64,000 nucleotides of DNA from Desulfococcus multivorans (GTDB lineage: Bacteria > Desulfobacterota > Desulfobacteria > Desulfobacterales > Desulfococcaceae), in contig NZ_CP015381.1 of the NCBI RefSeq assembly GCF_001854245.1, positions 4,251,001 to 4,315,000 of the forward strand. The letters run 5' to 3'. Under the pieces are notes generated by a model that was not told the DNA's origin, did no database searches, and was given only the letters and a program-made list of their open reading frames with translations. Below, one piece after another: positions 3,085-16,741 of this stretch (its first letter is position 1; the number at the start of each line of letters is the position of its first letter). The translations under genes and the position numbers were made by a program.

Positions 3085-3167
3085 CTTGAGGACTTGAACC
3101 TTACTTGTAGCTAAGCGCTTTAAATCCTTGCTGTTCGTCGCTTCCGACCGTCATGCCTTTATTTAAT

Positions 3168-3200
3168 GTGTGTAAGAAATATGCCTGAAAAGTGTGTAAG
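3168..3200 (+). promoter_or_regulatory. Left pair of candidate integrase arm-type sites
   Basis: GTGTGTAAG occurs at 3168-3176 and again at 3192-3200, start-to-start distance 24 bp, in the same direction. The right end of the element has the same motif pair with the same 24-bp spacing. Placement 85-130 bp from the att core fits arm-type binding sites of a tyrosine integrase. This role is inferred. Confidence 0.6.
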
Positions 3201-3250
3201 TTAAATTGGCCTGAATGTCAAGAGGCGAAGCCTCCTCAAGAGGCGAACTT

Positions 3251-3322
3251 CCAGGCTAACCTCCAGGCTAACCTCCAGGCTAACCTCCAGGCTAACCTCC
3301 AGGCTAACCTCCAGGCTAACTT
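3251..3322 (+). repeat. 12-bp tandem repeat, six copies
   Basis: CCAGGCTAACCT starts at 3251, 3263, 3275, 3287, 3299 and 3311. It directly follows two GAGGC-GAA-GCCTC hairpin units at 3220 and 3238. No gene reads through it convincingly. Confidence 0.85.
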
Positions 3323-3493
3323 CCATTTTGGCGCAAAAATCTGAAAGGGTATATCGTAGGGGGGCGGAAAGAATTCCCCCCGGTGGGGGTGGTCGTGCTC
3401 GCGAGATCTCGTACATACGCGGCTCTTGCTGCCGGGGGGATACCCCTCGCTCTTGCAGGAACCACACAAGCCTAGGAAGCTGCGCATCTCTCA

Positions 3494-3830
3494 GCGCTGG
3501 CGCATCTCGTGCATGCGTTGCGCTCACCTGCATCTATTAAGGAGGGGGGCGATCCTTGGAGAAGCTGCGCTTCCTTGGAGAAGCGCTGGCGCATCTCGTG
3601 CATGCGTTGCGCTCACCTGCATCTATTAAGGAGGGGGGTGATCCTTGGAGAAGCGCTGGCGCATCTCGTGCATGCGTTGCGCTCACCTGCATCTATTAAG
3701 GAGGGGGGTGATCCTTGGAGAAGCTGCGCTTCCTTGGAGAAGCGCTGGCGCATCTCGTGCATGCGTTGCGCTCACCTGCATCTATTAAGGAGGGGGGTGA
3801 TCCTTGGAGAAGCGCTGGCGCTTCCTTGGA
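3494..3830 (+). repeat. Higher-order tandem repeat with alternating 89- and 70-bp units
   Basis: The segment starting GCGCTGGCGCATCTCGTGC begins at 3494, 3583, 3653 and 3742, with a partial copy at 3812. Start-to-start distances are 89, 70, 89 and 70 bp. The 19-bp difference is a hairpin insert containing GAAGC-TGC-GCTTC (3561-3573 and 3720-3732), present in every second unit. The whole is therefore two copies of a 159-bp double unit plus a partial unit. Confidence 0.85.
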
Positions 3831-3897
3831 GAGGGTCCTTGGTGTCTACCCAGGCAGCTGAGATGCCAGGACAGGTGAACCACTGACCGCCAACCTC

Positions 3898-3939
3898 AAG
3901 AGGCGAAACTGCCTCCTCAAGAGGCGAAACTGCCTCCAC
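3898..3939 (+). repeat. Hairpin repeat, two 21-bp units with a six-base loop
   Basis: Two adjacent units contain GAGGC-GAAACT-GCCTC. They share the stem of the 18-bp units at 4347 and 5246 but have a longer loop, so the stem is kept while the loop differs. Confidence 0.75.
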
Positions 3940-4346
3940 CGCAAGAGCAGCAAGCTGCTTATCGCTTCTGTAAGCCACGAATAACCTACGTTATACCAAC
4001 CAGCCATCCTCATTAATAGACATATCCGGATTACTGAGAGCACCATCAAGCGACGATCTCTTTGTTTTAATGTCCAGGCATTCGATTTCATGTCAGAAGC
4101 CTCACCTCTTTTTGTTTGACCTGGAGATATGTTTACTTAATGTTTATTGTTAGTTAGCTTATTAGTTAACATAAGGCCTATTATCAGACGTTAATGTTAT
4201 CTTCTTGATTTAATTCTGAATTCCTGTTTCACCGTCCAACTATCCCATATTGGCACGAATTTAGTAATTCCAATATGTTAATATCTGCTGCCTATTCTAA
4301 AGGCAGACAGTCAAGGCAGACAGTCAAGGTAGACACCAGCAGCTCC

Positions 4347-4508
4347 AAGAGGCGAAGCCTCCTCAAGAGGCGAAGCCTCCTCAAGAGGCGAAGCCTCCTC
4401 AAGAGGCGAAGCCTCCTCAAGAGGCGAAGCCTCCTCAAGAGGCGAAGCCTCCTCAAGAGGCGAAGCCTCCTCAAGAGGCGAAGCCTCCTCAAGAGGCGAA
4501 GCCTCCTC
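4347..4508 (+). repeat. Hairpin repeat, nine 18-bp units (GAA loop)
   Basis: Nine perfect copies of AAGAGGCGAAGCCTCCTC run from 4347 to 4508. Each contains GAGGC-GAA-GCCTC, a 5-bp stem with a three-base loop. There are no unique spacers, so this is not a CRISPR array. Related units lie at 3220, 3898, 5246, 7894, 9463 and 15904. Confidence 0.92.
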
Positions 4509-4700
4509 CGTGAAGCTCTCTCAGCAGCTTGCTGAAGCTTTCGTGAAGCTTTCGTGAAGCTTTCGTGAAGCTTTCGTGAAGCTCTCAGCTGCCACAGAAC
4601 CGACGATCTTTTTGAGGACATACCCTTCTATAGGGAGACAGACATCAGCAGCTTGCTGAAGCTTTCGTGAAGCTTGCTGAAGCTTTCGTGAAGCTTTCTT
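4503..4700 (+). repeat. GTGAAGCTTTC-type short tandem repeats
   Basis: After the nine hairpin units the sequence changes to repeats of GTGAAGCTTTC (four adjacent units around 4537-4580) and similar units around 4645-4700. They contain the short palindromes GAAGCTTC/GAAAGCTTTC. No gene is supported here. Confidence 0.7.
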
Positions 4701-4915
4701 AGATGCCCTTGGGGATTGACCGAGGCAGCTCCGAAGGAGATGCTGAGACTGGCATCAGCTGGTGAAGCTGTAATGTAGCTTCCATGTTGATTGATTCCGA
4801 TTAGAACCTTCCTTGGAGAAGCTACGCTTCCTTGTAAACAGTTGATTTTACCATATTTTAGATACCCCTCAGTATAGGATATAATCAATGCAAAGGGGGG
4901 ACTTTAGGGGGGTAA

Positions 4916-4990
4916 GTTAAACATTAAGTTAAACTGAAAGTTAAACTGAAAGTTAAACTGAAAGTTAAACATTAAGTTAACCTCTTAGTT
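4916..4990 (+). repeat. AT-rich GTTAAACTGAAA direct repeats
   Basis: AGTTAAACTGAAAGTTAAAC-type units repeat about every 12 bp, then grade into AT-rich variants of AGTTAAC up to about 5070. Array and AT-richness resemble an origin or regulatory binding array, but no function can be read from the sequence alone. Confidence 0.6.
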
Positions 4991-5245
4991 TTCTCTTTTA
5001 TTTTTATCAATAAATAAAACATCTCTTAGTTAACATTAAAGATAACTCTTAGTTAACTAAAAGATAACCTTAGGCTTCACCCAAGTTATCCTTGGTTTTA
5101 GCATATATATTTGCTTCTCCTTTCTCTTTCTATCGATCAGGTAGTCAGGGTGGGTCCTCTTCCAGCCCACCTTGGCTACCCCCCTTTTCGAACATGCATA
5201 AAAACCAATAAGTTACCCAATAAGTTTACCAATAAAATAACCCTC

Positions 5246-5317
5246 AAGAGGCACAGCCTCCTCAAGAGGCACAGCCTCCTCAAGAGGCACAGCCTCCTCA
5301 AGAGGCACAGCCTCCTC
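5246..5317 (+). repeat. Hairpin repeat, four 18-bp units (ACA loop)
   Basis: Four copies of AAGAGGCACAGCCTCCTC contain GAGGC-ACA-GCCTC. They have the same stem as the array at 4347 but a different loop. A fifth, broken unit begins at 5318, where AAAAAGGAG provides the ribosome site of the next gene. Confidence 0.9.
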
Positions 5318-5334
5318 AAAAAGGAGTAACACAA

Positions 5335-5757
5335 ATGCCAGAATACAGAACCAAGGTCCAACTTCAGGCCCGCCTGGAAAAAGGTCCTTCTCGGCGAATA
5401 ACTTTCTCTTTGACAAAAACCCCATCAGCCACCCTCGATGCATGCCACAGGCTCATCGGTGAAAACTTATCAATCAGGACGAGTACCTCAGTTATCCTGA
5501 TGCGAGCGTTCGAGTGCTACAAAGAGCACCTGGAGAAGCTTCCGGATGCAACAGACGTTATTGAAGCGCTGAATATTGAGAAAAGTAAGCTTTTTGCTGC
5601 CGCCAACCGGAGCACAGATCAGTTCGATTTCGACAAACGTTCGTACTACAGGTACGATCGCAAAATGAGAATGAAGAGAAAAACGGAGAGAAAAACGGAG
5701 AGAAAGGAGAATGACAATAACAATGGCCTCATCAAAGAAGAAGCAGCCACAGAGTAA
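5335..5757 (+). CDS. Hypothetical island protein
   Basis: I do not recognise this 140-aa protein. The centre (residues 20-60, RRITFSLTKTPSATLDACHR then a segment ending AFECYKEH) could be a small helical fold of ribbon-helix-helix type, but that is a guess. The C-terminus is highly basic (MRMKRKTERKTER) and followed by an Asn-rich tail. The ATG has a strong AAAAAGGAG site 9 nt upstream that comes from the edge of the hairpin array at 5246-5317. It is the first gene of the rightward series in the island and overlaps the next gene by about 35 bp. Confidence 0.65.
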   Translation: MPEYRTKVQLQARLEKGPSRRITFSLTKTPSATLDACHRLIGENLSIRTSTSVILMRAFECYKEHLEKLPDATDVIEALNIEKSKLFAAANRSTDQFDFDKRSYYRYDRKMRMKRKTERKTERKENDNNNGLIKEEAATE

Positions 5758-6100
5758 ACAAAAGGTTAGCATCCAAGACGTGGATGTTGATGCAGAACGT
5801 GAAAAGGTATTCGACCTTTATTTCAACACCGTTGATCTTTGTCAGACCGCAGTTAAACAAGCCAAGGCAGGGGATGCCAAATTCAATGGGTCTTTGCTCC
5901 GTGAGATCGTAGGCTTCCTGAAGCAGAGCGCAGGAATCCTTAAAGAGATCGAGCAATTCAAGCGTCAGGCTGCTGTCAATGCTGCGATTAGCGCCACGCC
6001 TTCAGAAGAAGATGCCAATCTCCTTGCAGAGTTCGAGGAGATTGAAAGAAATTCGGAATGGTCGGATAAATATGATCCAATGTCTCTGCCTCTCGAATAA
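5723..6100 (+). CDS. Hypothetical island protein
   Basis: Unrecognised, about 125 aa, mostly predicted helical: Lys/Gln-rich start, a middle rich in alternating charged and hydrophobic residues (residues 25-85) and an acidic end (EEDANLLAEFEEIERNSEW). The ATG at 5711 sits only one base after GGAG, so I prefer the ATG at 5723, which gives the long 13-nt spacing also seen at other genes of this island. It overlaps the end of the preceding gene. Confidence 0.62.
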   Translation: MASSKKKQPQSKQKVSIQDVDVDAEREKVFDLYFNTVDLCQTAVKQAKAGDAKFNGSLLREIVGFLKQSAGILKEIEQFKRQAAVNAAISATPSEEDANLLAEFEEIERNSEWSDKYDPMSLPLE

Positions 6101-6453
6101 TATTGAGTTAAGAGTTTGAGCCACTGTTGTGTTTTGAGTAGCGCATCCAGTGGCTCTTCCTGGCCTACCTGGTGGATTCACAGATGGGACCTGATTTAAC
6201 CTGAGGGTGATATCAGAGAGCACTGTGATGAAGCCCGGTAGATACCCAGGAAGTGAACATGAAGTGAACATTACAATTTTGTCAGATTATGATACCTGAT
6301 GATAGGCCAAACCTATCATTGTCTTACAAAATTGTAACATTCATGCATGCGTTTGAATTGTAGTCATCTTAACCTAAAATCAAAATTCATGTTCACAAAC
6401 AGACAAACCTCATCCATCATAAAATCCATCATAAAATAACAGGAGGCATCACA
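6101..6453. other. Gene-free stretch with a long imperfect palindrome
   Basis: No gene is seen. The main feature is an inverted repeat: GAACATTACAATTTTGT at 6266-6282 pairs with ACAAAATTGTAACATTC at 6326-6342 with two mismatches, and an inner hairpin pairs 6299-6306 with 6312-6319 around a CCAAA loop. It could be an operator or a transcribed structure for the following gene. The ribosome site AGGAGG at 6442 precedes that gene. Confidence 0.6.
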
Positions 6454-7125
6454 ATGGTTTCACCTCTATGGCAACACCTCCGTGAAAAATACGGAGGAGG
6501 TCAGTGTTCAATCCCAGGTTGCGGAGCAGAACGCTTTGAGATTTCCCAATATTGTCAAAAACACGCTTTAAAAAAGCAGTACTGGGGCCATCCCGAGGCC
6601 GCCTTCGTTCCCCTTAGTTATTACAAAACCGAGATCCTTGAGGTAACCAAGGTTATTATAAAAAACCGGCAGCATGTATCCGTCAATGCCGCTTTAAACT
6701 TCCTTAATGAATACATCGAGACGTCCAAACGTGTAGCGTCAGGTGAACTCCCGGCTAACCTCTTTCCTGTACCGGCACCCGAATTTATTATGTCTATCGG
6801 AGATTCACGGCTATTAAATAAGAACGGCATCAGGGATTTGGAGCCTCTCTTGATCAGGATGGCTGGCCTTCATTTGTACTGTGATCGTAATGAAGGCGGA
6901 CCAAACGTCAGGGATCATAATCACAGAATCCATCTCATGGGGCATGTTCTGCTCTGGTATGCTAAACCAAGTAGATTAAAGGGGAGGGGCATCCCCCGTC
7001 GCAAGGTTGGGGCATATATTTATGAGAATTTAAGTAAATTCCTGATCAATGTTGCACGGTCAGTAGGGAGAGAGATCGAAGGAGCCATTAGGTTTCAAAA
7101 GGTTCAGGAGATGGACCTGAAATAA
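6454..7125 (+). CDS. Hypothetical protein with N-terminal Cys/His zinc-finger-like motif
   Basis: A 223-aa protein I cannot assign. Residues 18-37 read CSIPGCG...YCQKHA, a Cys-x4-Cys plus Cys-x2-His pattern that suggests a small zinc site of a kind common in phage-encoded proteins. The rest has no motif I know; a basic stretch (KPSRLKGRGIPRRK) lies near 170-185, compatible with nucleic-acid binding. The start has a clear AGGAGG site 7 nt upstream. It follows a palindrome-bearing intergenic region and precedes an HNH-like gene. Confidence 0.7.
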   Translation: MVSPLWQHLREKYGGGQCSIPGCGAERFEISQYCQKHALKKQYWGHPEAAFVPLSYYKTEILEVTKVIIKNRQHVSVNAALNFLNEYIETSKRVASGELPANLFPVPAPEFIMSIGDSRLLNKNGIRDLEPLLIRMAGLHLYCDRNEGGPNVRDHNHRIHLMGHVLLWYAKPSRLKGRGIPRRKVGAYIYENLSKFLINVARSVGREIEGAIRFQKVQEMDLK

Positions 7126-7161
7126 GAGATTTCAAAGAAAGAAAGGAGAGAGAGATAAATT

Positions 7162-7938
7162 ATGCCAGCATTAAAAGACGAAACAGGGAACGTATATGGC
7201 CGCCTTACTGTAATTGCCAGAGCGGAGAGGCCTGAGGGATTGAAAAACACAAATGCTTACTGGCGGTGCCGCTGTGAATGTGGAAGGGAAGTGGTTGTTA
7301 ATGGGGGGGATTTGCGGCGTGGAAACACATCCTCGTGTGGCTGTTACCAAAAGGATAGAACCTCCGAGACAAAGTCAAAGTCTGAGGTCCCTCTATATGG
7401 CCTCTGTGCGCAATTTCCTAAAGAGTACACTGTGTGGTACCGTATGGTTGATCGCACGACTAATCCTGGTAATGGAGACTTCGCGACCTACGGACTCGAA
7501 GGTATTAGATGCTGTCCTCGGTGGCGGCGCAGTTTCAAAAATTTCCTTGAAGACATGGGGCCACGCCCGAAGGGGGGTCTTGGTGAAATCCATCTTGATC
7601 GTACGGATGGCGACGGCCCGTATGCACCCTGGAACTGTAAATGGGTGAGTCAAAGAGAGAATATGCTTAACAGAACAAGCACGGTCTGGTTGCAAGACCC
7701 ACTGGACGGTGAATTTTTATGTCAGAAGGATATGGCGCGCAAATTTGGATTGAAGCCTGTAACCCTCCAGGCACGTCTGAACAGACTCGGGTGGCCCCTG
7801 GAGAAAGCCCTTATGACTCCAGTCGATAAGCGAATGGCCACGAAGCATAAAAGTGAACCTCAAGCCAAAGAAGCGAAGCTTCCTAAACCCCAAGAGGCCA
7901 TGCCTCCCCAACCTAAGATTCTTCAGCCTTCCCTCTAA
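7162..7938 (+). CDS. HNH/homing-endonuclease-like protein, copy 1
   Basis: 258 aa. Residues 12-65 form a zinc-ribbon-like module (GRLTVIARAE, then C36/C38/C40 and C59/C61 in SSCGC) widespread in phage proteins. Residues 109-171 (YGLEGIRCC, WRRSFKNFLEDMGPRP, LDRTDGDGPYAPWNCKW, ENMLN) match the phage HNH-like endonuclease core. A third block (QKDMARKFGLKPVTLQARLN, 189-208) looks like a DNA-binding helix-turn-helix. The C-terminal 40 residues are a low-complexity tail whose DNA includes island hairpins (7870-7882 and 7894-7906). A paralogue sits at 13609. Activity is not proven: the usual catalytic histidines are not obvious. Confidence 0.65.
   Translation: MPALKDETGNVYGRLTVIARAERPEGLKNTNAYWRCRCECGREVVVNGGDLRRGNTSSCGCYQKDRTSETKSKSEVPLYGLCAQFPKEYTVWYRMVDRTTNPGNGDFATYGLEGIRCCPRWRRSFKNFLEDMGPRPKGGLGEIHLDRTDGDGPYAPWNCKWVSQRENMLNRTSTVWLQDPLDGEFLCQKDMARKFGLKPVTLQARLNRLGWPLEKALMTPVDKRMATKHKSEPQAKEAKLPKPQEAMPPQPKILQPSL
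7870..7906 (+). repeat. Two hairpin units inside the 3' end of an HNH-like gene
   Basis: GAAGC-GAA-GCTTC lies at 7870-7882 and GAGGC-CAT-GCCTC at 7894-7906, both inside coding sequence. They encode part of the Lys/Pro-rich tail that the paralogue at 13609 lacks. Confidence 0.75.
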
Positions 7939-8068
7939 GAGCACATCAGATATCAACTGAGAGCCTCCAGAATCCACGATCTTTTCCCTCCCGTACCCTA
8001 CCTTCCCTCCCAGGAGATCGTCTCTTCCTGAGCGTCAACCACCTACCATAACAGGAACAAATAAGCAT

Positions 8069-8338
8069 ATGAGCGTCATCCATACCTGTATCACCGGCCC
8101 AGACAATAAGATTGAAGAACGTGAGCTCACCCTCGGCAAGGCCATCAGATTGCACTGCCTCGAATGCCTCGGTTTTAGCCCTGATGAGGTTAGCCGGTGT
8201 AGCCACCAGATTTGTCCGCTTCATCCATTCCGCTTCGGTAGAGATCCCAGTCACACGAGGGAGATGACCGATGAGCAGAAGGCCGCTACAGCTGCGCGTC
8301 TCAAGGCCGCAAGACAGACAGCCAAGATTGAAGATTGA
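8069..8338 (+). CDS. Small Cys-rich phage-type protein
   Basis: 89 aa. The core LGKAIRLHCLECLGFSPDEVSRC...ICPLHPFRFGRDP has Cys-x2-Cys, then two further Cys, and ends in a PxRFGR-type motif. I associate this architecture with small zinc proteins found in phages and islands of anaerobic proteobacteria; function unknown. The ATG follows AGGA by 12 nt. The protein at 9279 has a similar arrangement of cysteines and may be a distant relative. Confidence 0.7.
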   Translation: MSVIHTCITGPDNKIEERELTLGKAIRLHCLECLGFSPDEVSRCSHQICPLHPFRFGRDPSHTREMTDEQKAATAARLKAARQTAKIED

Positions 8339-8400
8339 AAACTTTTAACTAATAATCAAACTCAAACTCTAACTCATTAAGAGAAAGGAAAGCACAAACA

Positions 8401-9261
8401 ATGTCCAACGACAACAACAACAACGTCTATAAGACTGGCAAAGGCAATTCTTACAGCATGAACCTCAATCGTCTCTCCGGCGGAGCGCTTGAAATCCAAG
8501 CAAATAACATCAATGACACCCAAGTTGATGATGACCGGCCCTTCCCCAGCATGATTGGTGTCTCAGCCGAGGTTTCCGCCGATGGCAAGGTAAGTTTCGG
8601 TAAAGGGCTCCAAACGTACAACGGCGCCTCACTCGCGTCCAACCTTCAAGGAGACATCCTGTCAACTGCAAAGACAAAATGGGGAACACCTGTCTCCGAT
8701 CTGAGCAAATATTCCGATAACGAGGTCATTGTTACGGTACAAGGCACGCAGTGTACGCTCAAAACTGCTCTCCAGGTAGGCCTTGTACACAAAGATTCCA
8801 ACGGCAGTGTGGTTGATCCGACTGCCAGCAGAGAAGCTTCTCCACAGCCTCCGCAGAAGACGCTCGAAGTTGACCTCGCGGGGAACTCCAGGCAAAATCT
8901 CAATGCTGTCTACCAGCGCTTGGGGTCCGGGATTGCAGATAACACGATCGTGAGTTTGATCAACGCAGCGATAAATGAGGATGGGACAAAGGCTGACCGG
9001 ACGCTTGAATCTGCCTCCAAAGCTTTAGGCATCAATGCCAGCGCAACCAAGCAGATCTTTCAGAACGCCATTAGCGATGTCGAAAAGAACGCCACGGCAT
9101 TTGGCGAGAAACACCTGGGTCTTCCGATGAAAGAGGTTTTCGAGCATCTAACCACGTGCAGCAAGATGTACCGTACAAGCGTCTATATCCGCCTCCTGAA
9201 CAGCGATCTCTCGGTTTTTCCTGAGTTAGCCGAAAATCATAAACTTAAGAACAAGTTCTAA
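8401..9261 (+). CDS. Hypothetical island protein with Asn-rich N-terminus
   Basis: Unrecognised, 286 aa, no signal peptide or membrane segment. It starts MSNDNNNN, encoded by a CAA-type repeat (about 8405-8424), followed by a beta-rich half (residues 20-135, many Val/Thr/Gly), a Pro-rich linker (PQPPQKTLEV, 148-157) and a helical half (165-286). AAGGAAAG lies about 13 nt before the ATG. The two-part layout could be a structural or DNA-binding protein, but nothing decides it. Confidence 0.68.
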   Translation: MSNDNNNNVYKTGKGNSYSMNLNRLSGGALEIQANNINDTQVDDDRPFPSMIGVSAEVSADGKVSFGKGLQTYNGASLASNLQGDILSTAKTKWGTPVSDLSKYSDNEVIVTVQGTQCTLKTALQVGLVHKDSNGSVVDPTASREASPQPPQKTLEVDLAGNSRQNLNAVYQRLGSGIADNTIVSLINAAINEDGTKADRTLESASKALGINASATKQIFQNAISDVEKNATAFGEKHLGLPMKEVFEHLTTCSKMYRTSVYIRLLNSDLSVFPELAENHKLKNKF

Positions 9262-9278
9262 GAAAAGGAGAGCGAAGC

Positions 9279-9464
9279 ATGTCCGATCTAAAGAGAACCC
9301 CTACGGAGGAGCGAGGTAAGCCTCAGTCGATGAAGCTTAAAACCAAGGAAGAAATTCTAAAAAGATGCCTTGCCTGTAAAGGCGGCGCGGTTACAAAGAT
9401 AATGCGATGTAAAACAGATCTTTGTGTCAATTACGATTTTCGTGAAGCCGCCCTGGGTGGATGA
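9279..9464 (+). CDS. Small Cys-rich island protein
   Basis: 61 aa with four cysteines in RCLACKGG...MRCKTDLCVNYDF, a spacing similar to the protein at 8069 (Cys-x2-Cys, then Cys and Cys-x5-Cys), which suggests a zinc site. A good GGAG site lies 8-9 nt before the ATG. The stop codon runs directly into an inverted pair of GAGGC hairpin units (9463-9493), so the gene end may have been shaped by that insertion (inference). Function unknown. Confidence 0.62.
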   Translation: MSDLKRTPTEERGKPQSMKLKTKEEILKRCLACKGGAVTKIMRCKTDLCVNYDFREAALGG

Positions 9465-9493
9465 GGCTTCGCCTCTTGAGGAGGCTTCGCCTC
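9463..9493 (-). repeat. Two hairpin units overlapping a stop codon
   Basis: GAGGC-TTC-GCCTC occurs at 9463-9475 and 9481-9493. The loop is the complement of the GAA loop at 4347, so these are the same repeat in the opposite direction. The first unit begins within the TGA stop of the small gene ending at 9464. Confidence 0.85.
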
Positions 9494-9582
9494 TTGCGGT
9501 GATATGAAATAGAAGTAGTATAAAACAACAACAACAAATAAGGGTGGGGGTTAACGTAGTCCAATACGTTATCCCTGCCTTT

Positions 9583-9611
9583 TTTTTATTGAACATGCAG
9601 GGCTACCTCAT
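9583..9611 (+). repeat. 28-bp direct repeat, copy A
   Basis: A segment reading TTTTATTGAACATGCAGGGC and on to CTACCTCAT recurs at 10024-10051, where it forms the last codons of the gene at 9689. Here it is non-coding. It marks a duplication or rearrangement inside the island. Confidence 0.8.
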
Positions 9612-9688
9612 GTTAGCTATGTTCTTAAATTCATTCATCTTCTTATTTTCCCTCATTATAGGTACAAAGAACTGCACTGAGATATAAC

Positions 9689-10054
9689 GTGCAGCGAGAA
9701 TCCCAGATCAGCCAGCAGCAAGCGTCTCGGGTTATGCAAGCCAAGGTGGCGTTCGACAATTTAAAATCCACACCAACTGGTGTGAATTTTCCAACGCATG
9801 AATCTCAGATCCGCCCAATGGCTACCACCACCCTCAACGCTAACCCTGAACTCCAGGCCACCATAGACAATCTAAAATCGATGCCCATGGGCATCAAAAA
9901 TTTACCTACCCACGAACGCCAGATCCGACCCATGGACAATCTAAAATCGGTGCCCATGGGCACCAAAAATTTACCTACCCACGAATTCCAGATCCCCCCT
10001 GCGAAGAATACCTCTTTCGAGAGTTTTATTGAACATGCAGGGCTACCTCATTAA
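9689..10054 (+). CDS. Mosaic repeat protein derived from the neighbouring ParB-like-motif gene
   Basis: 121 aa, GTG start at 9689 (ATG at 9734 is an alternative; neither has a clear ribosome site). Three copies of a motif of about 25 residues occur: DNLKSTPTGVNFPTHESQIR (23-42), DNLKSMPMGIKNLPTHERQI (60-79) and DNLKSVPMGTKNLPTHEFQI (83-102). The gene at 10506 has the matching LPIYERQVRPL. The end, PAKNTSFESFIE (104-115), is identical in DNA and frame to residues 12-23 of that neighbour (35 bp, 9998-10032 versus 10539-10573), and the final codons repeat 9583-9611. It may be a decoy, a regulator or debris; coding status is uncertain. Confidence 0.45.
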   Translation: MQRESQISQQQASRVMQAKVAFDNLKSTPTGVNFPTHESQIRPMATTTLNANPELQATIDNLKSMPMGIKNLPTHERQIRPMDNLKSVPMGTKNLPTHEFQIPPAKNTSFESFIEHAGLPH

Positions 10055-10075
10055 CAATAAGGAGCATTAAGACCA

Positions 10076-10462
10076 ATGAAGAAAAACATCACCACCAGCA
10101 ATAACAATAACAATAACGACACCACCAGATGGGCACCTCGCAAGGAAGAGTTCACCAAGTCGATAATCTCAAAGCTCGGCTTCAACCCACTTGAGGCCAC
10201 TGAGAGGCACCTCAAGAATAAGAACAGCGCGCTGTACATGCACCCTGGTAAATTCGCCGAGGATGCCGTTCCGATCGAGGTTGTAGACGCACTCCGCGAA
10301 TTAATGACTCTTGACAGGGATAGTCTACTGATGACAGCGCGGGGAATCCTGCCGCTGAAAGTTACGGCAAACTTGCTCTTTTATGTCATCTCGATCTGGG
10401 CGGCATTACGTGATGAAGAGTTGCTGGCTGATATCGATCCGACAGACACGCCGATGCAGTAA
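10076..10462 (+). CDS. Hypothetical island protein with poly-Asn N-terminus
   Basis: Unrecognised, 128 aa. The N-terminus MKKNITTSNNNNNND is encoded by an AAT/AAC repeat (10099-10118). The remainder is mixed helical with a hydrophobic segment near 100-112 (VTANLLFYVISIWAAL), possibly buried rather than membrane. TAAGGAG lies 11 nt before the ATG. Its stop lies 43 bp before the ParB-like-motif gene, so the two are probably co-transcribed. Confidence 0.65.
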   Translation: MKKNITTSNNNNNNDTTRWAPRKEEFTKSIISKLGFNPLEATERHLKNKNSALYMHPGKFAEDAVPIEVVDALRELMTLDRDSLLMTARGILPLKVTANLLFYVISIWAALRDEELLADIDPTDTPMQ

Positions 10463-10505
10463 CCAAATCCTAACACGAACATCAAATAGAAAGGTACTAA
10501 ACAAA

Positions 10506-11111
10506 ATGAAAAATATGTTTCTCGACGCCTTAAAGATCCCTGCGAAGAATACCTCTTTCGAGAGTTTTATTGAGCGTCTTGTTGTAGAGAATCGTGAACT
10601 GAGAAGTAAGCTCATGAATCAGCAAATGATCATCGATTATCTTATTAAGAATGCAGGGGAAGGCGCCATAAAAGCCTGCACCATCAACGACGAAGACGAA
10701 GACGAATTCATCATTGAATATGAACCACCCTGGTTTGTGCAGGTAGGCCAGGCGCTGTCTCACCTGAAGGAGGCACTCCTTACTGAGTTCCCTTGTGCGG
10801 AGCAAGGACCGCTACCCAGATGGGGGGAGACGTGCAAGGAACTCAGCATCAGCCAATCCTACGCCAACCGGCTGATCGCCGCCGCCGAGGTATATGTAGC
10901 TCTGAGATCCGCAGGAATCGATGAAGATGATCTCCCGATATATGAGCGTCAGGTTCGCCCTCTCGTCAGATTCAAGCAGGATCCGTCCATTCTGAAGTAT
11001 CTCTGGGAGGAGGCGCTGGTGATTGCAGAAGACATCGAATTCAATTCTCTTCCAAGGGCTGGGGTCGTGGAGTATGTCGTGGGCAACTTCGAGAGGAACG
11101 GGCGGAAGTAG
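10506..11111 (+). CDS. ParB-like-motif DNA-binding protein (putative)
   Basis: 201 aa from the ATG at 10506, which has AAGG about 11 nt upstream; the in-frame extension to 10383 overlaps the previous gene and is rejected. Residues 23-48 look like a coiled coil, 60-72 are acidic, 103-130 (GETCKELSISQSYANRLIAA) look like a helix-turn-helix, and 143-153 read LPIYERQVRPL. As I recall, HTH followed by LPxxExQxRPL occurs in ParB-like and regulatory proteins of phages and plasmids; this is memory, not a search. It could act at the parS-like site at 14493 or at the island arrays, which is speculative. A strong terminator follows. Confidence 0.6.
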   Translation: MKNMFLDALKIPAKNTSFESFIERLVVENRELRSKLMNQQMIIDYLIKNAGEGAIKACTINDEDEDEFIIEYEPPWFVQVGQALSHLKEALLTEFPCAEQGPLPRWGETCKELSISQSYANRLIAAAEVYVALRSAGIDEDDLPIYERQVRPLVRFKQDPSILKYLWEEALVIAEDIEFNSLPRAGVVEYVVGNFERNGRK

Positions 11112-11134
11112 AATAAGTAGTAATTGATTAAACC

Positions 11135-11174
11135 AGGGGGTGCCTTCTTATTGAGAGGGTGCCCTCTTTTTTTT
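11135..11174 (+). terminator. Rho-independent terminator
   Basis: Bases 11135-11148 pair with 11154-11167 through a 14-bp stem that uses several G-U pairs, around the loop TATTG, followed by an eight-base T run (11167-11174). It separates the ParB-like-motif gene from the P-loop gene. Confidence 0.8.
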
Positions 11175-11196
11175 GTTTAAGAAAGGAGTTAGAAAT

Positions 11197-12504
11197 ATGA
11201 CAAAAGTAACCGTAAAAGTTATTGACGCAATTATGGGCAAAGGCAAAACGTCCTGGGCAATCCAGCATATGAACGAGAATGCTTCGGAGGACAACCCATT
11301 CATCTACATCACGCCGTTCTTGGATGAGATCAAGGATCGGATCATCCCTGAGTGCAAGGCCAGCAAGTTCGCTCAACCGGAAGTCCACATTGTTAGGGGT
11401 AAGAGACAGAACAAATCCGACAGCCTGAAGGCGCTTCTCGTTGAAGGCAGGAACATTGCCAGCACCCACAAGCTTTTCTCCAGGGTTGACCGAGAAGCCT
11501 TGGATCTGATCAAGCTCCGAGGCTACACGCTGATCTTGGATGAGGTCATGTCTGTGCTTGAGCCGCTGGATGTCCCAGAGGCCGATTTCAAGGCGATGAT
11601 GGGGCACGATGTGCTGAGGATCGATGAGGATGATCCGATCTACCAAGGGTCAATCAGGAAGCTCATGCCGGGTTCAACGATGAAGGACGTATCTGCCTTC
11701 AGGTACTACGTTGATCTCGCAGAGATGGATCGTTTGGTTTTAGCAAATGGAAAGGCGATGCTGTGGTTGTTCCCGCATGAGATCTTCGAGACGTTCAGGG
11801 ATATTTATTGCATGACGTACATGTTCGAAGGTCAGATCCAGAAGGCTTATTATGACCTGTTTGGAGTGAAGTACGAATACTTTGATGTCCAAGGTTCACG
11901 AGATGCTGGCTTTAAGCTTGTCCCCGGTGTGGACGGAAGAGACACAGAGATGAATGCCCTGGAGATGATTTCCGGTCTGATCGATCTTATCCCCGAGGAT
12001 GACCGCCTGAACTGCGTCGGGGATGAACCTGGGGCGCTGTCCTTGAGTTGGTATCAGCGGCAGACACCGGCGGTGATTGATCTGCTGAGGAAGAATCTCG
12101 GCAACTATTTTAAGCACAAGACAAAAGGTGGCGCTCGTTCCAGACTGTGGGCTACCTATTCGAAGTTCGTGAGGCCGCTTGAAGGCAATGGGTACATGAG
12201 TTCGAATAAGGACACCAGCGCTCACCTTGCGTTTAACGCCAAAGCGACCAACAAGTACAGAACGAGGTTCAACCTTGCTTATTGTTGCAATGTCCACCTC
12301 AAGCCGGAGATCACCCGGTTCTTTGATTTTCACGGTGTTAAGATCGATGAGGAGCAGTACGCATTGTCGGTCCTGATCCAGTGGGTCTGGAGATCCAGAA
12401 TCAGAGAGAACAAGTCGGTCACTCTTTATCTGCCCTCAAGCCGAATGAGAGGGTTGCTGCATCGATGGCTCAGCGGTGAGTTCCTGAAATCTAAAATAAG
12501 CTAA
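11197..12504 (+). CDS. P-loop ATPase, phage helicase-like
   Basis: 435 aa from the ATG at 11197, chosen because GGAG lies 8 nt upstream. Walker A is MGKGKTS (13-19) and Walker B LILDEV (112-117), preceded by FIYITPFLDEIKDRI (35-49), a segment I know from phage DEAD/DEAH-like helicase-family proteins. C-terminal motifs (QWVWRSRIRENK near 395-406) are compatible with a helicase motif VI-like arginine region. It is the only island gene with a recognisable energy-using role and is the best candidate for replication or DNA processing. It follows a terminator, so it is transcribed separately. Confidence 0.72.
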   Translation: MTKVTVKVIDAIMGKGKTSWAIQHMNENASEDNPFIYITPFLDEIKDRIIPECKASKFAQPEVHIVRGKRQNKSDSLKALLVEGRNIASTHKLFSRVDREALDLIKLRGYTLILDEVMSVLEPLDVPEADFKAMMGHDVLRIDEDDPIYQGSIRKLMPGSTMKDVSAFRYYVDLAEMDRLVLANGKAMLWLFPHEIFETFRDIYCMTYMFEGQIQKAYYDLFGVKYEYFDVQGSRDAGFKLVPGVDGRDTEMNALEMISGLIDLIPEDDRLNCVGDEPGALSLSWYQRQTPAVIDLLRKNLGNYFKHKTKGGARSRLWATYSKFVRPLEGNGYMSSNKDTSAHLAFNAKATNKYRTRFNLAYCCNVHLKPEITRFFDFHGVKIDEEQYALSVLIQWVWRSRIRENKSVTLYLPSSRMRGLLHRWLSGEFLKSKIS

Positions 12505-12516
12505 CCATTGCAAACC

Positions 12517-12571
12517 CCCGGTTATCAAGGCTTCACATATGGTTATACCCCATGAGGTCTTGGTAACCGGG
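12517..12571. repeat. 13-bp inverted repeat after the P-loop gene
   Basis: CCCGGTTATCAAG (12517-12529) and CTTGGTAACCGGG (12559-12571) are complementary except for one position. The arms are 29 bp apart. There is no T run, so an operator or processing structure is as likely as a terminator. Confidence 0.6.
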
Positions 12572-12667
12572 CTTGCGCTGGCTACCTGCGCAAACAGGAA
12601 GAAAACCTCAGTAAAATCAGCGGTTTACGAGCGTCACTCGGTATATGAAAACTGAAAAGTTAACCTC

Positions 12668-12780
12668 TAAGCTAATCCAAAAGACGACTGAAAGCTGACA
12701 TTAAGCTAATCCAAAAGACGACTGAAAGCTGACCTCTAAGCTAATCCAAAAGACGACTGAAAGCTGACATTAAGCTAATC
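12668..12780 (+). repeat. Iteron-like 34-35-bp direct repeats
   Basis: TAAGCTAATCCAAAAGACGA followed by CTGAAAGCTGAC starts at 12668, 12702 and 12737; a fourth truncated copy starts at 12771. Spacing is 34, 35 and 34 bp, about three helical turns, which would place a bound protein on the same face of the DNA. Placement in a gene-free stretch after the P-loop gene resembles a replication-origin iteron array; this role is inferred. Confidence 0.75.
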
Positions 12781-12917
12781 AAGAGCACGCCGAAAGAACC
12801 ATGCAGATGGAGGTCTGAATTAAGAGAGTTCAAAGAGAGCACCATTATGAACCCCCGGTTACCAAGGGTTTGCAAGGACGAGCTTTATGAATCCGCTATT
12901 CATAAGGGTTTACAGAG

Positions 12918-12952
12918 TTGGGAGATTTTTGCTCCCAAATCGTCTTTTTTTT
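12918..12952 (+). terminator. Rho-independent terminator
   Basis: TTGGGAG (12918-12924) pairs with CTCCCAA (12932-12938) around a seven-base loop, followed after a short linker by eight T residues (12945-12952). It would end transcription from the P-loop gene and the array region. Confidence 0.65.
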
Positions 12953-13608
12953 CCTCGCAAACCCTTGACTGGCGCGGGTTCGCATTAGTGACCCGGAAGG
13001 GGGTAGACTTATTGTGAACTTTAATTTTGGCCTTTTAGTTTAGCTTTTTAGTTAGCTTTGATTTTAGCTGTTGGATGCACTCAATGACCGACCTGAGCGA
13101 TAGCGAAGGGAGACAGGCATCATTCAGGTGAACGTTGGTGAACAATAAAATTGTTGAAGATTCTTCAAATACAAAAAGTAAGCAGGGGCAGCAAGGCCAA
13201 AGTCAACACAGTGTCATCCGACAGTTACGAGCCCTCGCGTTCGCTCGGGATAATGATGACATCGTTGTTGAAATTATGTTCGCACACCTCCGGTGGGGGA
13301 TTAGACACCAAAGGCTGGAGTCCGGGAGAAGCTAAGGTGCAGTTTCCTTGGATATTTTCCTTGGTGTCTACAATCCCGCTTCGCGGAAAGGTTTTATGGA
13401 TAAATCAGCATTGAGATGTTCGCCCACGCTTACCCATAAGATGAAAACTCACCGTGCCTTCGGCCCGGCTCGAACAAGGATTTCATCATAAATTCTAACA
13501 TGTAGTTAACTATCAATAAACACAAACAATAATCAATTAGAAGGCCTGAAGATTCCTTAATGGTGTCTCAACGGTCTTCCTTACGCTTAAGAAAGGATAA
13601 GATAAACT

Positions 13609-14310
13609 ATGGCAGCATTAAAGGATTTAACAGGACAGACATTTGGCCGACTTACTGTGATCGCCAGGGCGGAGAAGCCTGATGGATTGAAGGACACAAG
13701 TGCTTACTGGAAATGCAAATGTCTTTGTGGAAATGAAGTGGTTGTCCGAGGGAGGAATCTGCGGCGTGGAAACACATCCTCGTGCGGATGTTACCAAAAG
13801 GACAGAGTCTCCGAGACAAAGTCAAAGTCTGAGGTCCCTCTATATGGCCTTCAGGCACGCTTTCCAAGAGAATACCAGGTGTGGTACTACATGATCCGGC
13901 GTACGACTGATCCTTCTAATCCAGACTTCGCGGCCTACGGGCTCGATGGGATACGTTGCTGTTCGCGGTGGCGACGGAGTTTCGCTGCTTTCATTGAAGA
14001 CATGGGACCACGTCCGGAGGGCGGTCTTAATGAAATACACCTCGATCGGATCGACGGCGATCAAGGCTACACTCCGTGGAACTGCCGATGGGTTTCTGCG
14101 CGAGAGAATGTTCTTAATCGTATCATCACGGTCTGGATTACGGACCCATTCGACGGCGAAATATTATGCCAGGCAGATATGGCGCGCAAATTTGGATTGA
14201 AGCCTAAAACCCTCCAGACACGTCTGAACATACTCGGATGGCCCCTGGAGAAGGCCCTCACAACTCCGGCAGGACCCTCCAGGATGCCCTCAGCCGAATC
14301 CCTGAGATAG
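13609..14310 (+). CDS. HNH/homing-endonuclease-like protein, copy 2
   Basis: 233 aa, paralogue of the protein at 7162 with nearly the same block order: zinc-ribbon-like part (GRLTVIARAE, CKCLCGNEVVV, SSCGC), HNH-like core (YGLDGIRCC, WRRSFAAFIEDMGPRP, LDRIDGDQGYTPWNCRW, ENVLN) and helix-turn-helix (QADMARKFGLKPKTLQTRLN). It lacks the long hairpin-encoded tail of copy 1. Parts of the DNA (for instance around 13752-13850) are nearly identical between the copies while other parts have drifted, which suggests an old duplication with local gene conversion. AAGGA precedes the ATG with long spacing. Confidence 0.66.
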   Translation: MAALKDLTGQTFGRLTVIARAEKPDGLKDTSAYWKCKCLCGNEVVVRGRNLRRGNTSSCGCYQKDRVSETKSKSEVPLYGLQARFPREYQVWYYMIRRTTDPSNPDFAAYGLDGIRCCSRWRRSFAAFIEDMGPRPEGGLNEIHLDRIDGDQGYTPWNCRWVSARENVLNRIITVWITDPFDGEILCQADMARKFGLKPKTLQTRLNILGWPLEKALTTPAGPSRMPSAESLR

Positions 14311-14440
14311 TCTCCACAATCACTCCTGACCACATCTCCTGCGTGTCTCCTCCGCGCATCACAGTGCATCACAGCGCATAATCCCCCACCTGTCTGGAAA
14401 AGATTCGCGTAGCGCATTCCTGGTCAGAATCTCACTTGTA

Positions 14441-14450
14441 AACCCCCGGT
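14441..14450 (+). repeat. AACCCCCGGT motif, third copy
   Basis: The same ten bases occur at 12513-12522 and 12850-12859. All three copies lie in gene-free stretches of the island's right half and each is followed by AT-rich sequence. Function unknown. Confidence 0.5.
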
Positions 14451-14492
14451 ATCATTGATGATTCACCACCCTTAATGGGTTATAGGAGGGAA

Positions 14493-14508
14493 TGTTCCAC
14501 GTGGAACA
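14493..14508. promoter_or_regulatory. parS-like ParB-binding site
   Basis: TGTTCCACGTGGAACA is a perfect 16-bp palindrome and fits the conserved bacterial parS consensus (TGTTNCACGTGNAACA type). Chromosomal parS sites load ParB and cluster near the origin. Here the site lies inside a mobile element, 65 bp before a small gene, with no recognisable parA or parB beside it. It may capture host ParB. Confidence 0.75.
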
Positions 14509-14572
14509 ATTATAGATAATTGCAGACAACAAATAACAAACAACAATAAGAAAAAGGAGAAACAATAACAAC

Positions 14573-14818
14573 ATGGATAAAATCAGTATCGATGTTTACG
14601 AAGGTATCCAGACCCCCAAGCATTTGTTCGACGTAACCTTGGACAATAAGCAGCTTTCATCCTTAACGTTCAGCTGCTCACTCAACCGCAATGCTCTTCC
14701 AATCGAAACTGCATATCATCTCCGAGACGTTGAAGCTAAACTGCGAGATGTCCTCCAAGACATCAAGGCCATTCTCAGGAAACACAAGGGAAAATACGAC
14801 GATATCCGGAAAGCTTAA
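14573..14818 (+). CDS. Small hypothetical island protein
   Basis: 81 aa, unrecognised: a beta-rich first half (ISIDVYEGIQ, LFDVTLDNKQ, LTFSCSL) and an amphipathic helical second half (AYHLRDVEAKLRDVLQDIKA). AAGGAG lies 13 nt before the ATG in a CAA/AAT-rich leader (14524-14572), as at several other island genes. It is the last rightward gene, the first after the parS-like site, and converges with the integrase gene 2 bp away. A small partner or regulator is possible but not shown. Confidence 0.65.
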   Translation: MDKISIDVYEGIQTPKHLFDVTLDNKQLSSLTFSCSLNRNALPIETAYHLRDVEAKLRDVLQDIKAILRKHKGKYDDIRKA

Positions 14819-14820
14819 TC

Positions 14821-16530
14821 TCAGTCCTTGCCTGTCCATCTACCGTCCTTGAGATGGCTCAGATCCAACTGATAGTTCAGCTTCTCAGCCATCACTTCAA
14901 ATAGATCCTTCACCCTATATCCCTTAGCATAACGCCGGGAGGTCTGTGTCTTCCCAGCTCTCCCGGTCAGCTCCTCGATAACACTCTCAGGGACCATGTT
15001 CTTATACAGGTGGTCGGTCATAGTGTGCCTGAACGAATGGAACACCTTCTTCGGGGAATCAATCCCGATGACCTTCTTTCGGTAAGATCCAAACCATCTG
15101 GAAGCATAATGCCCGTAAGATCCGGACTGCTTCTTCAGCTCTTGGAAAACACGTTTTCGTCCATCAGCTGGCTTTTGCACAAATCCAGGAAAATCAAGGT
15201 TGTATTGCAGCAGCACCGGGTGAAGGGGAACGAGCCTGGCTGAAGATTCATTCTTAATCTTCTTGTCCTTATTGTCATTGATGTCCAGCACCCATACACC
15301 ATCAACCTGATAAACGTCCTCGGTGTATAGCTGGCATAGTTCCTCCAGGCGACACCCGGTATATAACCCCAGGATAGGCAACCAAAACTGGAAAGGCTTC
15401 ATTGTGGCTACATCAGGGTATCTGAAGATCAGCGTGAGGTCCTCCTCTGAGAACACCTCACGCTGATCCCGTGCCTTCTTCTTCTTGGGTGGCTTAAGCC
15501 CTTCAGCTGGATTGAGATCCATGTACCCGAGCCTTACGCCGTGCCTGAATACCGCCTCCGCTGTCAGAAGGTACGACCGGACGGTTGTCATATCGAGTAA
15601 TGAGGTTTCAGGATTCACAGGTGGTAAATCCTCGTTGTTAAGGTTTTGGTATTCCTTAAGCCTACCAAAGCCAGCCGGAAGGCTCTCCAGCAGCTTCTTG
15701 AAATTGAGCATCTGCTGCCGACAGATGGTCCTCACCGGAGTGTCCTCACCCAGGTACCGGGTCAGAGCGTTGAAATATGGGGTATAGTTCCTGACGGTGC
15801 TATCAGTCCAGCGACCGGCCTTCACTCTTTCGTCCTGGTATTCATCGATCAGACCACGGAGGGTTATCGATGGTTTCATGGTAGGAGGCTTAAGATTCAC
15901 TAAGAGGCTCTGCCTCCTCAAGGCTTCTCCTGTGACCTCCCTTGAGGATAAACCACAGATTTCCTCGACCACCTCCTCGTCTGTACTGTCGTATCTGCCG
16001 AAAGTGCGCTCCTTTTCAACTTCAAGGACCTTGATGGAAGCTTTCAGCATACCCCGGCAAAGCTCCCGGTAAGCCTCGGAATCCTTGTCTATTTCTATGC
16101 CGTGTTCTTTCAGAATAAGGTCCACTCGATGCTCCATAGCCTGGACATGCTGTAGCTTCCCTAAGGCCTCCCTGTGCAGGGTCTGGACTGAATCTAAGGC
16201 CTCATACCGTTCATCGAGGAAGTCCTCATTGAGTGGCCTCTCAGTGAGCGTCCGGGTGGCTTCCTCTTCGGCCAGGGTATCACGGATCCACCCAGCGATG
16301 AGGCGGTTAATCTGAATTTTATCCATGTGCACCCTCTCCTTTCTTCTCAATTCTCTGACCAACCGCCGGATCTTCAAGGCGAGCTCCTGAGCCATCACCT
16401 TGGCAACACCGATGCGGCCTGTCCTGAGGCTGTACCGTATCTCTTTTCTGCCTATGATACTCTGGAGGTCTGCTGGGATTCTGTACCGGAAACAATATGA
16501 GTGACGATTCCTGACGAGATAACGCGCCAT
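14821..16530 (-). CDS. Tyrosine recombinase / island integrase
   Basis: 569 aa. The N-terminus (YLVRNRHSYCFRYRIPADL) is of the kind seen in phage-type integrases with a DUF6538-like start, followed by a core-binding domain (about 220-345) and a catalytic domain (350-550). Catalytic residues: R394 in TGCRLEE, H498 and R501 in HSFRH, Y534 in SRRYAKG. The position usually held by His (LTGH) is R524 (LTGR). A GGGAGGTGAG ribosome site precedes the ATG. The coding sequence contains one island hairpin (15904-15916), read as part of LRRQSLLVN (204-212). It lies 135 bp from its tRNA-Met target and should carry out integration and excision. Confidence 0.93.
   Translation of the reverse strand: MARYLVRNRHSYCFRYRIPADLQSIIGRKEIRYSLRTGRIGVAKVMAQELALKIRRLVRELRRKERVHMDKIQINRLIAGWIRDTLAEEEATRTLTERPLNEDFLDERYEALDSVQTLHREALGKLQHVQAMEHRVDLILKEHGIEIDKDSEAYRELCRGMLKASIKVLEVEKERTFGRYDSTDEEVVEEICGLSSREVTGEALRRQSLLVNLKPPTMKPSITLRGLIDEYQDERVKAGRWTDSTVRNYTPYFNALTRYLGEDTPVRTICRQQMLNFKKLLESLPAGFGRLKEYQNLNNEDLPPVNPETSLLDMTTVRSYLLTAEAVFRHGVRLGYMDLNPAEGLKPPKKKKARDQREVFSEEDLTLIFRYPDVATMKPFQFWLPILGLYTGCRLEELCQLYTEDVYQVDGVWVLDINDNKDKKIKNESSARLVPLHPVLLQYNLDFPGFVQKPADGRKRVFQELKKQSGSYGHYASRWFGSYRKKVIGIDSPKKVFHSFRHTMTDHLYKNMVPESVIEELTGRAGKTQTSRRYAKGYRVKDLFEVMAEKLNYQLDLSHLKDGRWTGKD
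15904..15916 (-). repeat. Hairpin unit inside the integrase gene (TCT loop)
   Basis: GAGGC-TCT-GCCTC, flanked by AA and CTCAAGG as in the tandem units, lies within the integrase coding sequence and keeps the frame. It falls in the linker before the core-binding domain, where an insertion would be tolerated. Confidence 0.75.
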
Positions 16531-16546
16531 AACGTCTCACCTCCCA

Positions 16547-16592
16547 TAAGCTTATCGCCCCTTAAAAGTGTGTAAAAAGGGGATAAGCTTTG
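16547..16592. repeat. Inverted repeat upstream of the integrase gene
   Basis: AAGCTTATCGCCCCTT and AAGGGGATAAGCTT form an inverted repeat (one extra base in the left arm) around a GTGTGTAA motif. Just upstream of the integrase start it could be the operator of an autoregulated integrase or an accessory recombination site. Confidence 0.55.
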
Positions 16593-16600
16593 TGTGTAAG
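16568..16600 (+). promoter_or_regulatory. Right pair of candidate integrase arm-type sites
   Basis: GTGTGTAA at 16568-16575 and GTGTGTAAG at 16592-16600 are 24 bp apart start to start, exactly as at 3168 and 3192. They lie 65 bp from the att core. Confidence 0.6.
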
Positions 16601-16664
16601 GCAAGACGCTGGCCACAAACAAGAATGTCTATGATCTTGAAATCACAGGCATCTTTTGGCGTAG

Positions 16665-16741
16665 TGGTGGCGATGCAGGGATTTGAACCCCGGACACTAC
16701 GGATATGAGCCGTATGCTCTAACCAACTGAGCTACATCGCC
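16665..16741 (-). tRNA. tRNA-Met (anticodon CAT), element insertion target
   Basis: The reverse strand folds as a complete tRNA: a 7-bp acceptor stem (GGCGATG with CATCGCC), D-arm AGCTCAGTTGGTTAGAGC, anticodon loop CTCATAT giving CAT, T-arm with GGTTCAAATCC, discriminator A and encoded CCA. The sequence resembles elongator tRNA-Met; a lysidine-modified tRNA-Ile2 also has a CAT gene sequence and cannot be fully excluded. Its 3' end is the right copy of the island direct repeat. The gene stays intact after insertion. Confidence 0.93.

Follow-up and report, generated by a model that had tools for sequence, protein, structure and literature searches.

The rearranged patch around ORF121, a 121-codon frame in a genomic island of Desulfococcus multivorans, is probably a broken, partial member of a protein family that has a ParB-like DNA-binding domain and, in the linker of most of its genes, a palindrome of its own, so that the patch would hold three predicted binding sites followed by a tail formed by template switching. 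All positions refer to the window, the whole 64,000-nucleotide stretch that was analysed (G000:C1:4251001-4315000), which belongs to a single-contig genome of 4.46 Mb. The features of the patch and its immediate surroundings are the following:

9542-9580, + strand: hairpin resembling a terminator, immediately before the patch, with a run of eight T after it (9580-9587)
9584-9611, + strand: 28-bp upstream segment, starting within the T run of the hairpin and repeated at 10024-10051
9662-10054, + strand: open frame, within which ORF121 denotes 9689-10054 (GTG start, 121 amino acids, no ribosome-binding sequence)
9662-9865, + strand: fragment of an LPxNExQxRPL-family gene, by alignment the second half of the HTH, the linker, the motif and the start of the next helix
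9769-9784: palindrome 1, CACACCAACTGGTGTG, 7 of 8 pairs, within an extended inverted repeat at 9763-9790
9866-10000, + strand: tandem pair of a 69-bp block of palindrome plus motif (copies 2 and 3), 92% identical
9880-9895: palindrome 2, GATGCCCATGGGCATC, perfect
9949-9964: palindrome 3, GGTGCCCATGGGCACC, perfect, with one compensated pair relative to palindrome 2
9997-10032, + strand: 36-bp piece of the intact neighbouring gene, an exact match to 10538-10573 in the same frame
10506-11111, + strand: intact neighbour, a 201-residue member of the LPxNExQxRPL family without a linker palindrome, whose predicted structure is similar to the DNA-binding domain of Noc/ParB and to Raf1

The first-pass annotation had described a 121-codon frame with three motif copies, assembled from pieces of neighbouring DNA. 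The frame exists on the + strand (9689-10054) and all three copies can be located, at 9755-9820 (DNLKSTPTGVNFPTHESQIRPM), 9866-9934 (DNLKSMPMGIKNLPTHERQIRPM) and 9935-10000 (DNLKSVPMGTKNLPTHEFQIPP), the first being more diverged than the consensus proposed at the time. The assembly from neighbouring DNA holds for the 55-bp tail, which is made of exact 36- and 28-bp pieces, but not for the body, which comes from another relative: copy 1 and its flanks match the DNA-binding region of the family and are no copy of the neighbouring gene. This relationship, which had escaped the first-pass annotation, extends over residues 1-58 of ORF121 and the in-frame residues upstream, which align to the family HTH, linker, motif and next helix. 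The alignment score against the intact neighbour was reached in none of 5000 shuffles, and the HTH part alone gave P values of 0.004 against the neighbour and 0.046 against the family locus L014 (the profile match of the fragment, E 1.3e-30, is circular, the fragment being one of the three rows of the profile). The family signature consists of an HTH of the form 'A..[RQ]LI.A..V..NL' followed by LPxNExQxRPL; ORF121 has both, with only the second half of the HTH, and a full-length test showed that the N-terminal helices and the C-terminal part are missing, which makes it a fragment.

The differences between the copies carry a record of past selection. Copies 1 and 2 are separated by 19 base differences, of which 13 fall at third codon positions (P about 0.0002 against simple random placement, or roughly 2 in 10,000 trials), with 9 silent and 5 replacing codon changes; since the differences are mostly synonymous, both copies descend from a gene or genes that were subject to selection on the protein. 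Between copies 2 and 3, on the other hand, four codon changes replace an amino acid and one is silent, the pattern expected for relaxed evolution. As for the tail, the identity to residues 12-23 of the intact gene and the shared frame reported in the first pass are correct and its length is 36 rather than 35 bp, while the 28-bp repeat of upstream DNA (10024-10051, equal to 9584-9611) is exact as described. The two pieces, in addition, overlap by 9 bp (TTTTATTGA, 10024-10032), a detail that had gone unrecorded, and the left junction lies at AGATCC, which is common to both partners. By an informal estimate, chance would not come near to producing two exact matches of this length (36 and 28 bp) within 10 kb, and the two joins at short homologies point to replication template switching. 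The hairpin in whose T run the 28-bp segment starts has a predicted fold of -21.7 kcal/mol (9541-9590, z -4.3); a simple consensus terminator scan did not list it (9542-9580).

All three motif copies contain, at matching codon columns, a palindrome of 16 nt, a feature that the first-pass annotation had not reported. Four pairs have changed on both arms between palindromes 1 and 2, and one more between 2 and 3, so that 23 of 24 pairs are intact. On the - strand the consensus scan listed palindromes 2 and 3 among its terminator-like hits, a promoter scan of 9400-10600 found no promoter-like site on the + strand, and a search of the hairpins against Rfam returned nothing but sub-threshold matches to potC (E 0.076 and 0.2).

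The palindrome is widespread in the family. Members were counted by the motif pattern in the collections searched, which leaves members outside the pattern uncounted; a set of 74 deduplicated members was drawn from 129 loci after setting aside window-derived rows, duplicates, ORFs shorter than 90 amino acids and motifs outside the pattern, and a further 20 external members brought the total to 94. Of the 94, 74 have a palindrome with a score of at least 7 within the 45 codons that precede the motif, against a mean of 7.2 and a maximum of 12 in 40 rounds of synonymous-codon shuffling. There are 86 palindromes of this score in those 45 codons and 12 elsewhere in the same ORFs. When the best palindrome was sought from 80 codons before to 45 codons after the motif, it fell inside the 22-codon linker in 62 of the 74 deduplicated members (13 expected under uniform placement), and in 53 of the 74 the codon-shuffle P value for the 28 codons before the motif was 0.05 or lower. 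The typical form is TGT-NNN-C(C/A)AT(G/T)G-NNN-ACA. Its centre, when even, falls in codon phase 1 in 34 cases and in phase 2 in 20, with 17 more palindromes being odd-centred, and one identical 18-mer, TGTCTCCAATTGGAGACA, is read as SPIGD in L059 and as VSNWRQ in L043; since the codon phase varies and one 18-mer encodes different peptides, the palindrome is conserved as nucleic acid.

Two or more palindromes occur in 8 of the 74 members, with a maximum of four in a gene on a Tolypothrix plasmid (L129, 1552-2046), where they are evenly spaced, 13 codons apart, before the motif. Given such multi-palindrome members, ORF121 can be seen as an extreme and broken case of a family tendency. The linker palindrome is absent from 20 of the 94 members, including a transposon-borne copy in the host genome (L029), and also from the intact neighbour. 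No further copy of the site was found near the gene in 39 deduplicated loci at up to 2 mismatches (39 of 82 loci, with even-centred palindromes of score at least 8); ten swap controls were likewise empty, so this result says only that a second nearby copy is rare.

A reverse search of viral contigs with TGTCTCCMATKGGAGACA returned 26 occurrences in 25 stretches. Seventeen of them lie inside family genes, 13 before the motif by pattern and 4 recognised by eye in members with a diverged motif (L339, L347, L348 and L354); together they represent 13 distinct genes, 9 of which are not in the discovery set. Six of these nine (L351, L352, L353, L339, L348 and L354) obey the residue rule described below, L344 (N at the variable motif residue) and L347 (H) fall outside it, and L340 has R despite the A core of TGTCTCCMATKGGAGACA, although of its several palindromes the strongest, which adjoins the motif, carries C at position 2. 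The other nine occurrences lie outside family genes. The same 18-bp palindrome in other frames (L332, L333, L335, L345 and L349) reads SPIGD, directly preceded by a methionine in all but one of the five, and could be a mark of target sites in genes outside the family. Two further occurrences, L336 and L337, lie on a single viral contig outside recognised family genes.

The bases of the palindrome follow the residues of the protein that its gene encodes. For this comparison half-site positions were numbered outward from the centre and protein columns taken from the family alignment; the code set comprised 59 of the 74 members (57 after near-duplicate removal), the other 15 having no palindrome of score at least 7. 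Mutual information was highest at residue X of the NEXQ motif and in the HTH helix. Members with R at X have C at half-site position 2 without exception (28/28), those with A or S have A in 28 of 29 cases (A 23/24, S 5/5), and the single members with N and W have G; the one exception, L073, also has a CAATTG palindrome. Further associations were found at column 63 (R with G, 17/17; S with C, 9/9; A with C, 7/7), column 67 (R with C, 26/30) and column 66 (Y or H with T, 42/44; N with G, 8/10), and half-site position 3 is C in all 59. Kinship was controlled through disjoint pairs and a hold-out rather than a full tree. The held-out set had 23 rows, 3 stretches of the window and 20 external members, and of these 20, 5 lack a palindrome, 1 has G at X and 14 were tested; all 14, which are 43-71% identical to the nearest discovery member, obey the X rule (a count of 16/16 is reached by adding copies 1 and 2 of ORF121). 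Of the closest disjoint pairs that differ by R versus A/S, 27 of 28 are consistent, and the pair L087/L090 is 96% identical outside the linker and motif, yet has switched between R and A/S together with the core. In leave-one-out prediction, from which members at least 85% identical were also removed, a protein ranked its own site at a median of 2 among 47, and among the top five in 43 of 59 cases.

In ParB and Noc, position 6 of the site, which we take to be the second base from its centre, is presumably A in parS and C in NBS. According to published work, R201 of these proteins has a preference for cytosine at position 6, and the parS-specific proteins favour glycine or other small residues at that residue position (PMC7383237). 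Motif residue X would correspond to ParB/Noc residue 201, whose rule is followed by 56 of the 57 family members with R, A or S and by 14 of 14 held out. Because its bases follow the protein residues by a code that matches the residue-201 rule, the linker palindrome is most likely the binding site of the protein, placed inside its own gene. The patch obeys the same code: copy 1 has S in the motif and an A core, and copy 2 has R and a C core. When the code is applied to the HTH fragment of ORF121 together with its S motif, the site of its own copy 1 comes 12th of 48, and those of copies 2 and 3 come 44th and 37th.

The palindromes could also act as RNA hairpins, in pausing, in RNA binding or as terminators on the - strand, rather than as DNA sites. 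The arms do vary with compensation, hairpins are predicted on the + strand (z -2.5 for copy 1, -1.3 for copy 2 and -0.8 for copy 3), and palindromes 2 and 3 look terminator-like on the other strand. Against this, it is the bases themselves, beyond their pairing, that track the HTH and motif residues, position 3 is an invariant C, and the code is the one by which ParB/Noc recognise DNA (PMC7383237). As the bases follow protein residues beyond what pairing needs, we consider a role as RNA hairpins only improbable.

The comparison with ParB rests on models as well as on the code. A model of member L058 (pLDDT 89.6) matched Spo0J-parS with a Z score of 10.3, ParB with 9.8 and Noc-NBS with 9.6, and the model of the intact neighbour matched Noc (Z 8.7) and Raf1 (Z 10.7). 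Raf1 was also the top VIA match of L058 (Z 11.5), and for helical proteins a Z below 13 can reflect a common arrangement. Foldseek returned nothing at E 0.001 or better (best Raf1, 0.033; Spo0J, 0.24), hhalign gave 0.2% for the family profile against the host ParB, and HTH_ParB matched 1 of 61 members (E 0.08). We therefore use ParB-like as a working description, which the code and the model matches suggest, with Foldseek being weak and the profile missing the host ParB; on these grounds the family protein may work like the DNA-binding domain of ParB. The family resembles ParB/Spo0J and Noc in its predicted HTH with a following helix and its palindrome of about 16 bp, and in having one residue that reads the second base from the centre, R with C and a small residue with A (PMC7383237); the predicted fold may match that of the parS- and NBS-bound domains. 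In contrast to ParB/Noc, the family carries its site within the gene, flanked by the two elements predicted to read it, with no second copy in the 39 loci, and the family differs further in lacking a profile match, a ParB domain (no Pfam ParB domain, and so no N-terminal CTP-binding domain, was detected in the whole intact window protein) and a ParA-type ORF in 79 of 80 viral loci. A ParABS partition module was rejected, since a simple pattern for ParA-type Walker ORFs found one nearby in just 1 of the 80; a member on a Streptomyces plasmid adjoins an AAA-family ATPase.

KorB and SopB share the plasmid setting and a similar domain (Z 5.7 and 6.2 against the solved structures), although the match is weaker than for ParB/Noc. 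The operators of KorB and SopB lie outside their genes. In Bacillus subtilis, parS is found inside spo0J, that is, a ParB site in the gene of its own binder, but it is one among several chromosomal sites, and the arrangement is not known to extend to a whole family or to co-vary. PARCEL repeats are likewise tandem coding repeats with dyad symmetry, linked to mobile elements in some taxa; they differ in being amphipathic, many in membrane-targeted proteins, and the abstract has no mention of a DNA-binding domain or of a recognition code (PMC2996958). Among the open-access papers searched, none contained the family motif strings, and the titles and abstract openings listed did not describe embedded sites of this kind.

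The family is found on cyanobacterial, actinobacterial and Deinococcus plasmids, on viral contigs, in the island and in a transposon-like unit. With a cut-off of E 0.001, profile A3 had a match in 19 of the 395 genomes searched in the phylum, counting the own genome, and some of these matches are weak; 79 plasmid records have a match, mostly cyanobacterial among those named, and the viral relatives are the best 80 of 88 and the best 80 of 168 matches of overlapping scans. No Pfam family covers the members: among 61 segments (of at most 165 residues for members other than the neighbour), 19 families match one member each, the best at E 0.0012, and PHROGs without a known function match at most 19 of the 61. 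On a Gloeothece plasmid (L121, 457-2394) the frame that contains the family domain carries the annotation DNA cytosine methyltransferase, and the gene surrounding L013 looks, by eye, unrelated. The host genome itself has three transposon-like units of 4.46 kb, about 99% identical, which encode, next to a transposase-like gene and an ATPase-like gene (roles assigned by eye), another member of the family, at approximately:

G000:C1:544066-548527
G000:C1:2540562-2545024
G000:C1:3808873-3813334

The island that holds the patch spans about 13.6 kb (3068-16681), with a 17-bp repeat of the 3' end of tRNA-Met at both ends:

3068-3084: left 17-bp repeat, a copy of the tRNA-Met 3' end, at the left island edge
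14821-16530, - strand: tyrosine integrase of the island, adjoining tRNA-Met
16665-16741, - strand: tRNA-Met, the attachment gene, with the right 17-bp repeat at 16665-16681

It contains two HNH-type genes, a large protein that matches phrog_2467 (function unknown) and many small ORFs. The HNH-endonuclease-like genes are two diverged copies (7153-7938 and 13600-14310, about 78% identical DNA in two blocks), one of which was scanned while the other is assigned as its diverged repeat. Tandem short hairpin repeats are abundant at 3241-5319 and 9460-9495 (AGGCGAAGCCT ten times, AGGCACAGCCT four times). A parS-like palindrome, TGTTCCACGTGGAACA, lies at 14493-14508 between the second HNH-like gene and the ORF at 14573; the genome has just two occurrences of its pattern, TGTTYCACGTGRAACA, the one in the island and one at C1:4359984 beside an mnmE-like gene (by eye), and the island may hold a site for the host ParB. 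Searches for relatives gave the own genome and one other in each case: 2 of 58 relatives for the intact 201-residue protein, 2 of 395 phylum genomes for the phrog_2467 protein, and 2 of 395 for the ORF121 protein, whose second match was weak (E 0.003) and in an unrelated-looking gene. ORF121 DNA had no match among phage and plasmid records, and the genomes searched contained no close relative of the island, which is why comparison does not distinguish decay of the patch from its maintenance.

The first-pass annotation had further proposed that ORF121 produces a decoy that competes for the partner of the intact protein. An AGG-containing ribosome-binding sequence precedes the ATG in 12 of 12 other island ORFs checked (start codons were chosen by us and, for two genes, lie later than in the longest frame) and neither of the two candidate starts of ORF121. 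The frame is open, the motifs are similar and 12 residues are identical to the neighbour, but the frame begins inside the HTH, so that the DNA-binding domain is incomplete, the changes between copies 2 and 3 are relaxed, and the body derives from a different relative. A protein decoy was thus discarded for want of a ribosome-binding sequence at either start and of a complete DNA-binding domain, and we hold such a peptide to be very improbable; a decoy made of DNA, that is, of binding sites, is possible.

In another reading, the intact neighbour, 0.5 kb downstream, would bind the three sites as a maintained array that controls the genes at 10076-12504. The sites follow a terminator-like hairpin and lie directly upstream of these genes, the linker of the neighbour has no site of its own, and in-gene arrays of 2 to 4 sites exist elsewhere (L069, L124 and L129). 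Palindromes 2 and 3 also have C second from the centre, as the ERQ residue of the neighbour predicts, and palindrome 3 has the G predicted by its asparagine in column 66. By the full code, however, no palindrome comes higher than 15th of 48 sites for the neighbour (palindrome 3, with palindrome 1 at 24th and palindrome 2 at 28th), half-site position 6 is T in palindromes 2 and 3 where C is expected, and the + strand of 9400-10600 has no promoter-like site. These ranks do not single out the neighbour as the reader of the patch; its binding of the three sites is weakly supported, and we think a maintained array of this kind unlikely.

A stronger contender is that the patch is pure debris, decaying rearranged DNA without a role, whose palindromes were inherited from the parent gene, one of them being repaired by hairpin template switching. 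We give this reading a little less than even weight, and on the origin of the patch it overlaps with the explanation that we prefer. It agrees with the missing ribosome-binding sequence and + strand promoter-like site, the four nonsynonymous changes against one synonymous change between copies 2 and 3, the chimeric tail, and an island rich in short hairpin repeats. Template switching can perfect palindromes without selection. Against it, three palindromes survive, two of them perfect and one with a matched pair change, and the frame is open across the whole patch. Probably, judging from sequence, the patch is either debris or a cluster of sites at the DNA level, and any importance that it has would lie in its DNA rather than in a decoy protein.

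The preferred explanation, a broken member with three predicted sites, would work as follows. A dimer of the family protein would bind the linker palindrome of its own gene, the HTH residues reading the outer bases and motif residue X the second base from the centre, and the binding would probably serve self-regulation or the marking of the replicon. In the island the block of palindrome plus motif would have multiplied to three, after which replication template switching at AGATCC and TTTTATTGA would have appended the 36-bp piece of the neighbour and the 28-bp upstream segment. The remnant would not be usefully translated, and any action would be that of a three-site cluster upstream of the genes at 10076-12504.

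The arrangement also suggests, tentatively, how specificity may change. With the site and the residue that reads it side by side in one short block, a single recombination would swap both, and specificity would change without passing through a mismatched state. ORF121 would then be a snapshot of this process, with copy 1 (S, A core) and copy 2 (R, C core) in one frame, and L087/L090 would represent the same switch in intact genes. The family offers dozens of natural pairs of protein and site in the same gene, 59 here, from which a recognition code can be read by comparison alone, and it may provide a concrete route for the joint change of specificity of a binder and its site, a long-standing question for ParB/parS-like and repressor/operator pairs.
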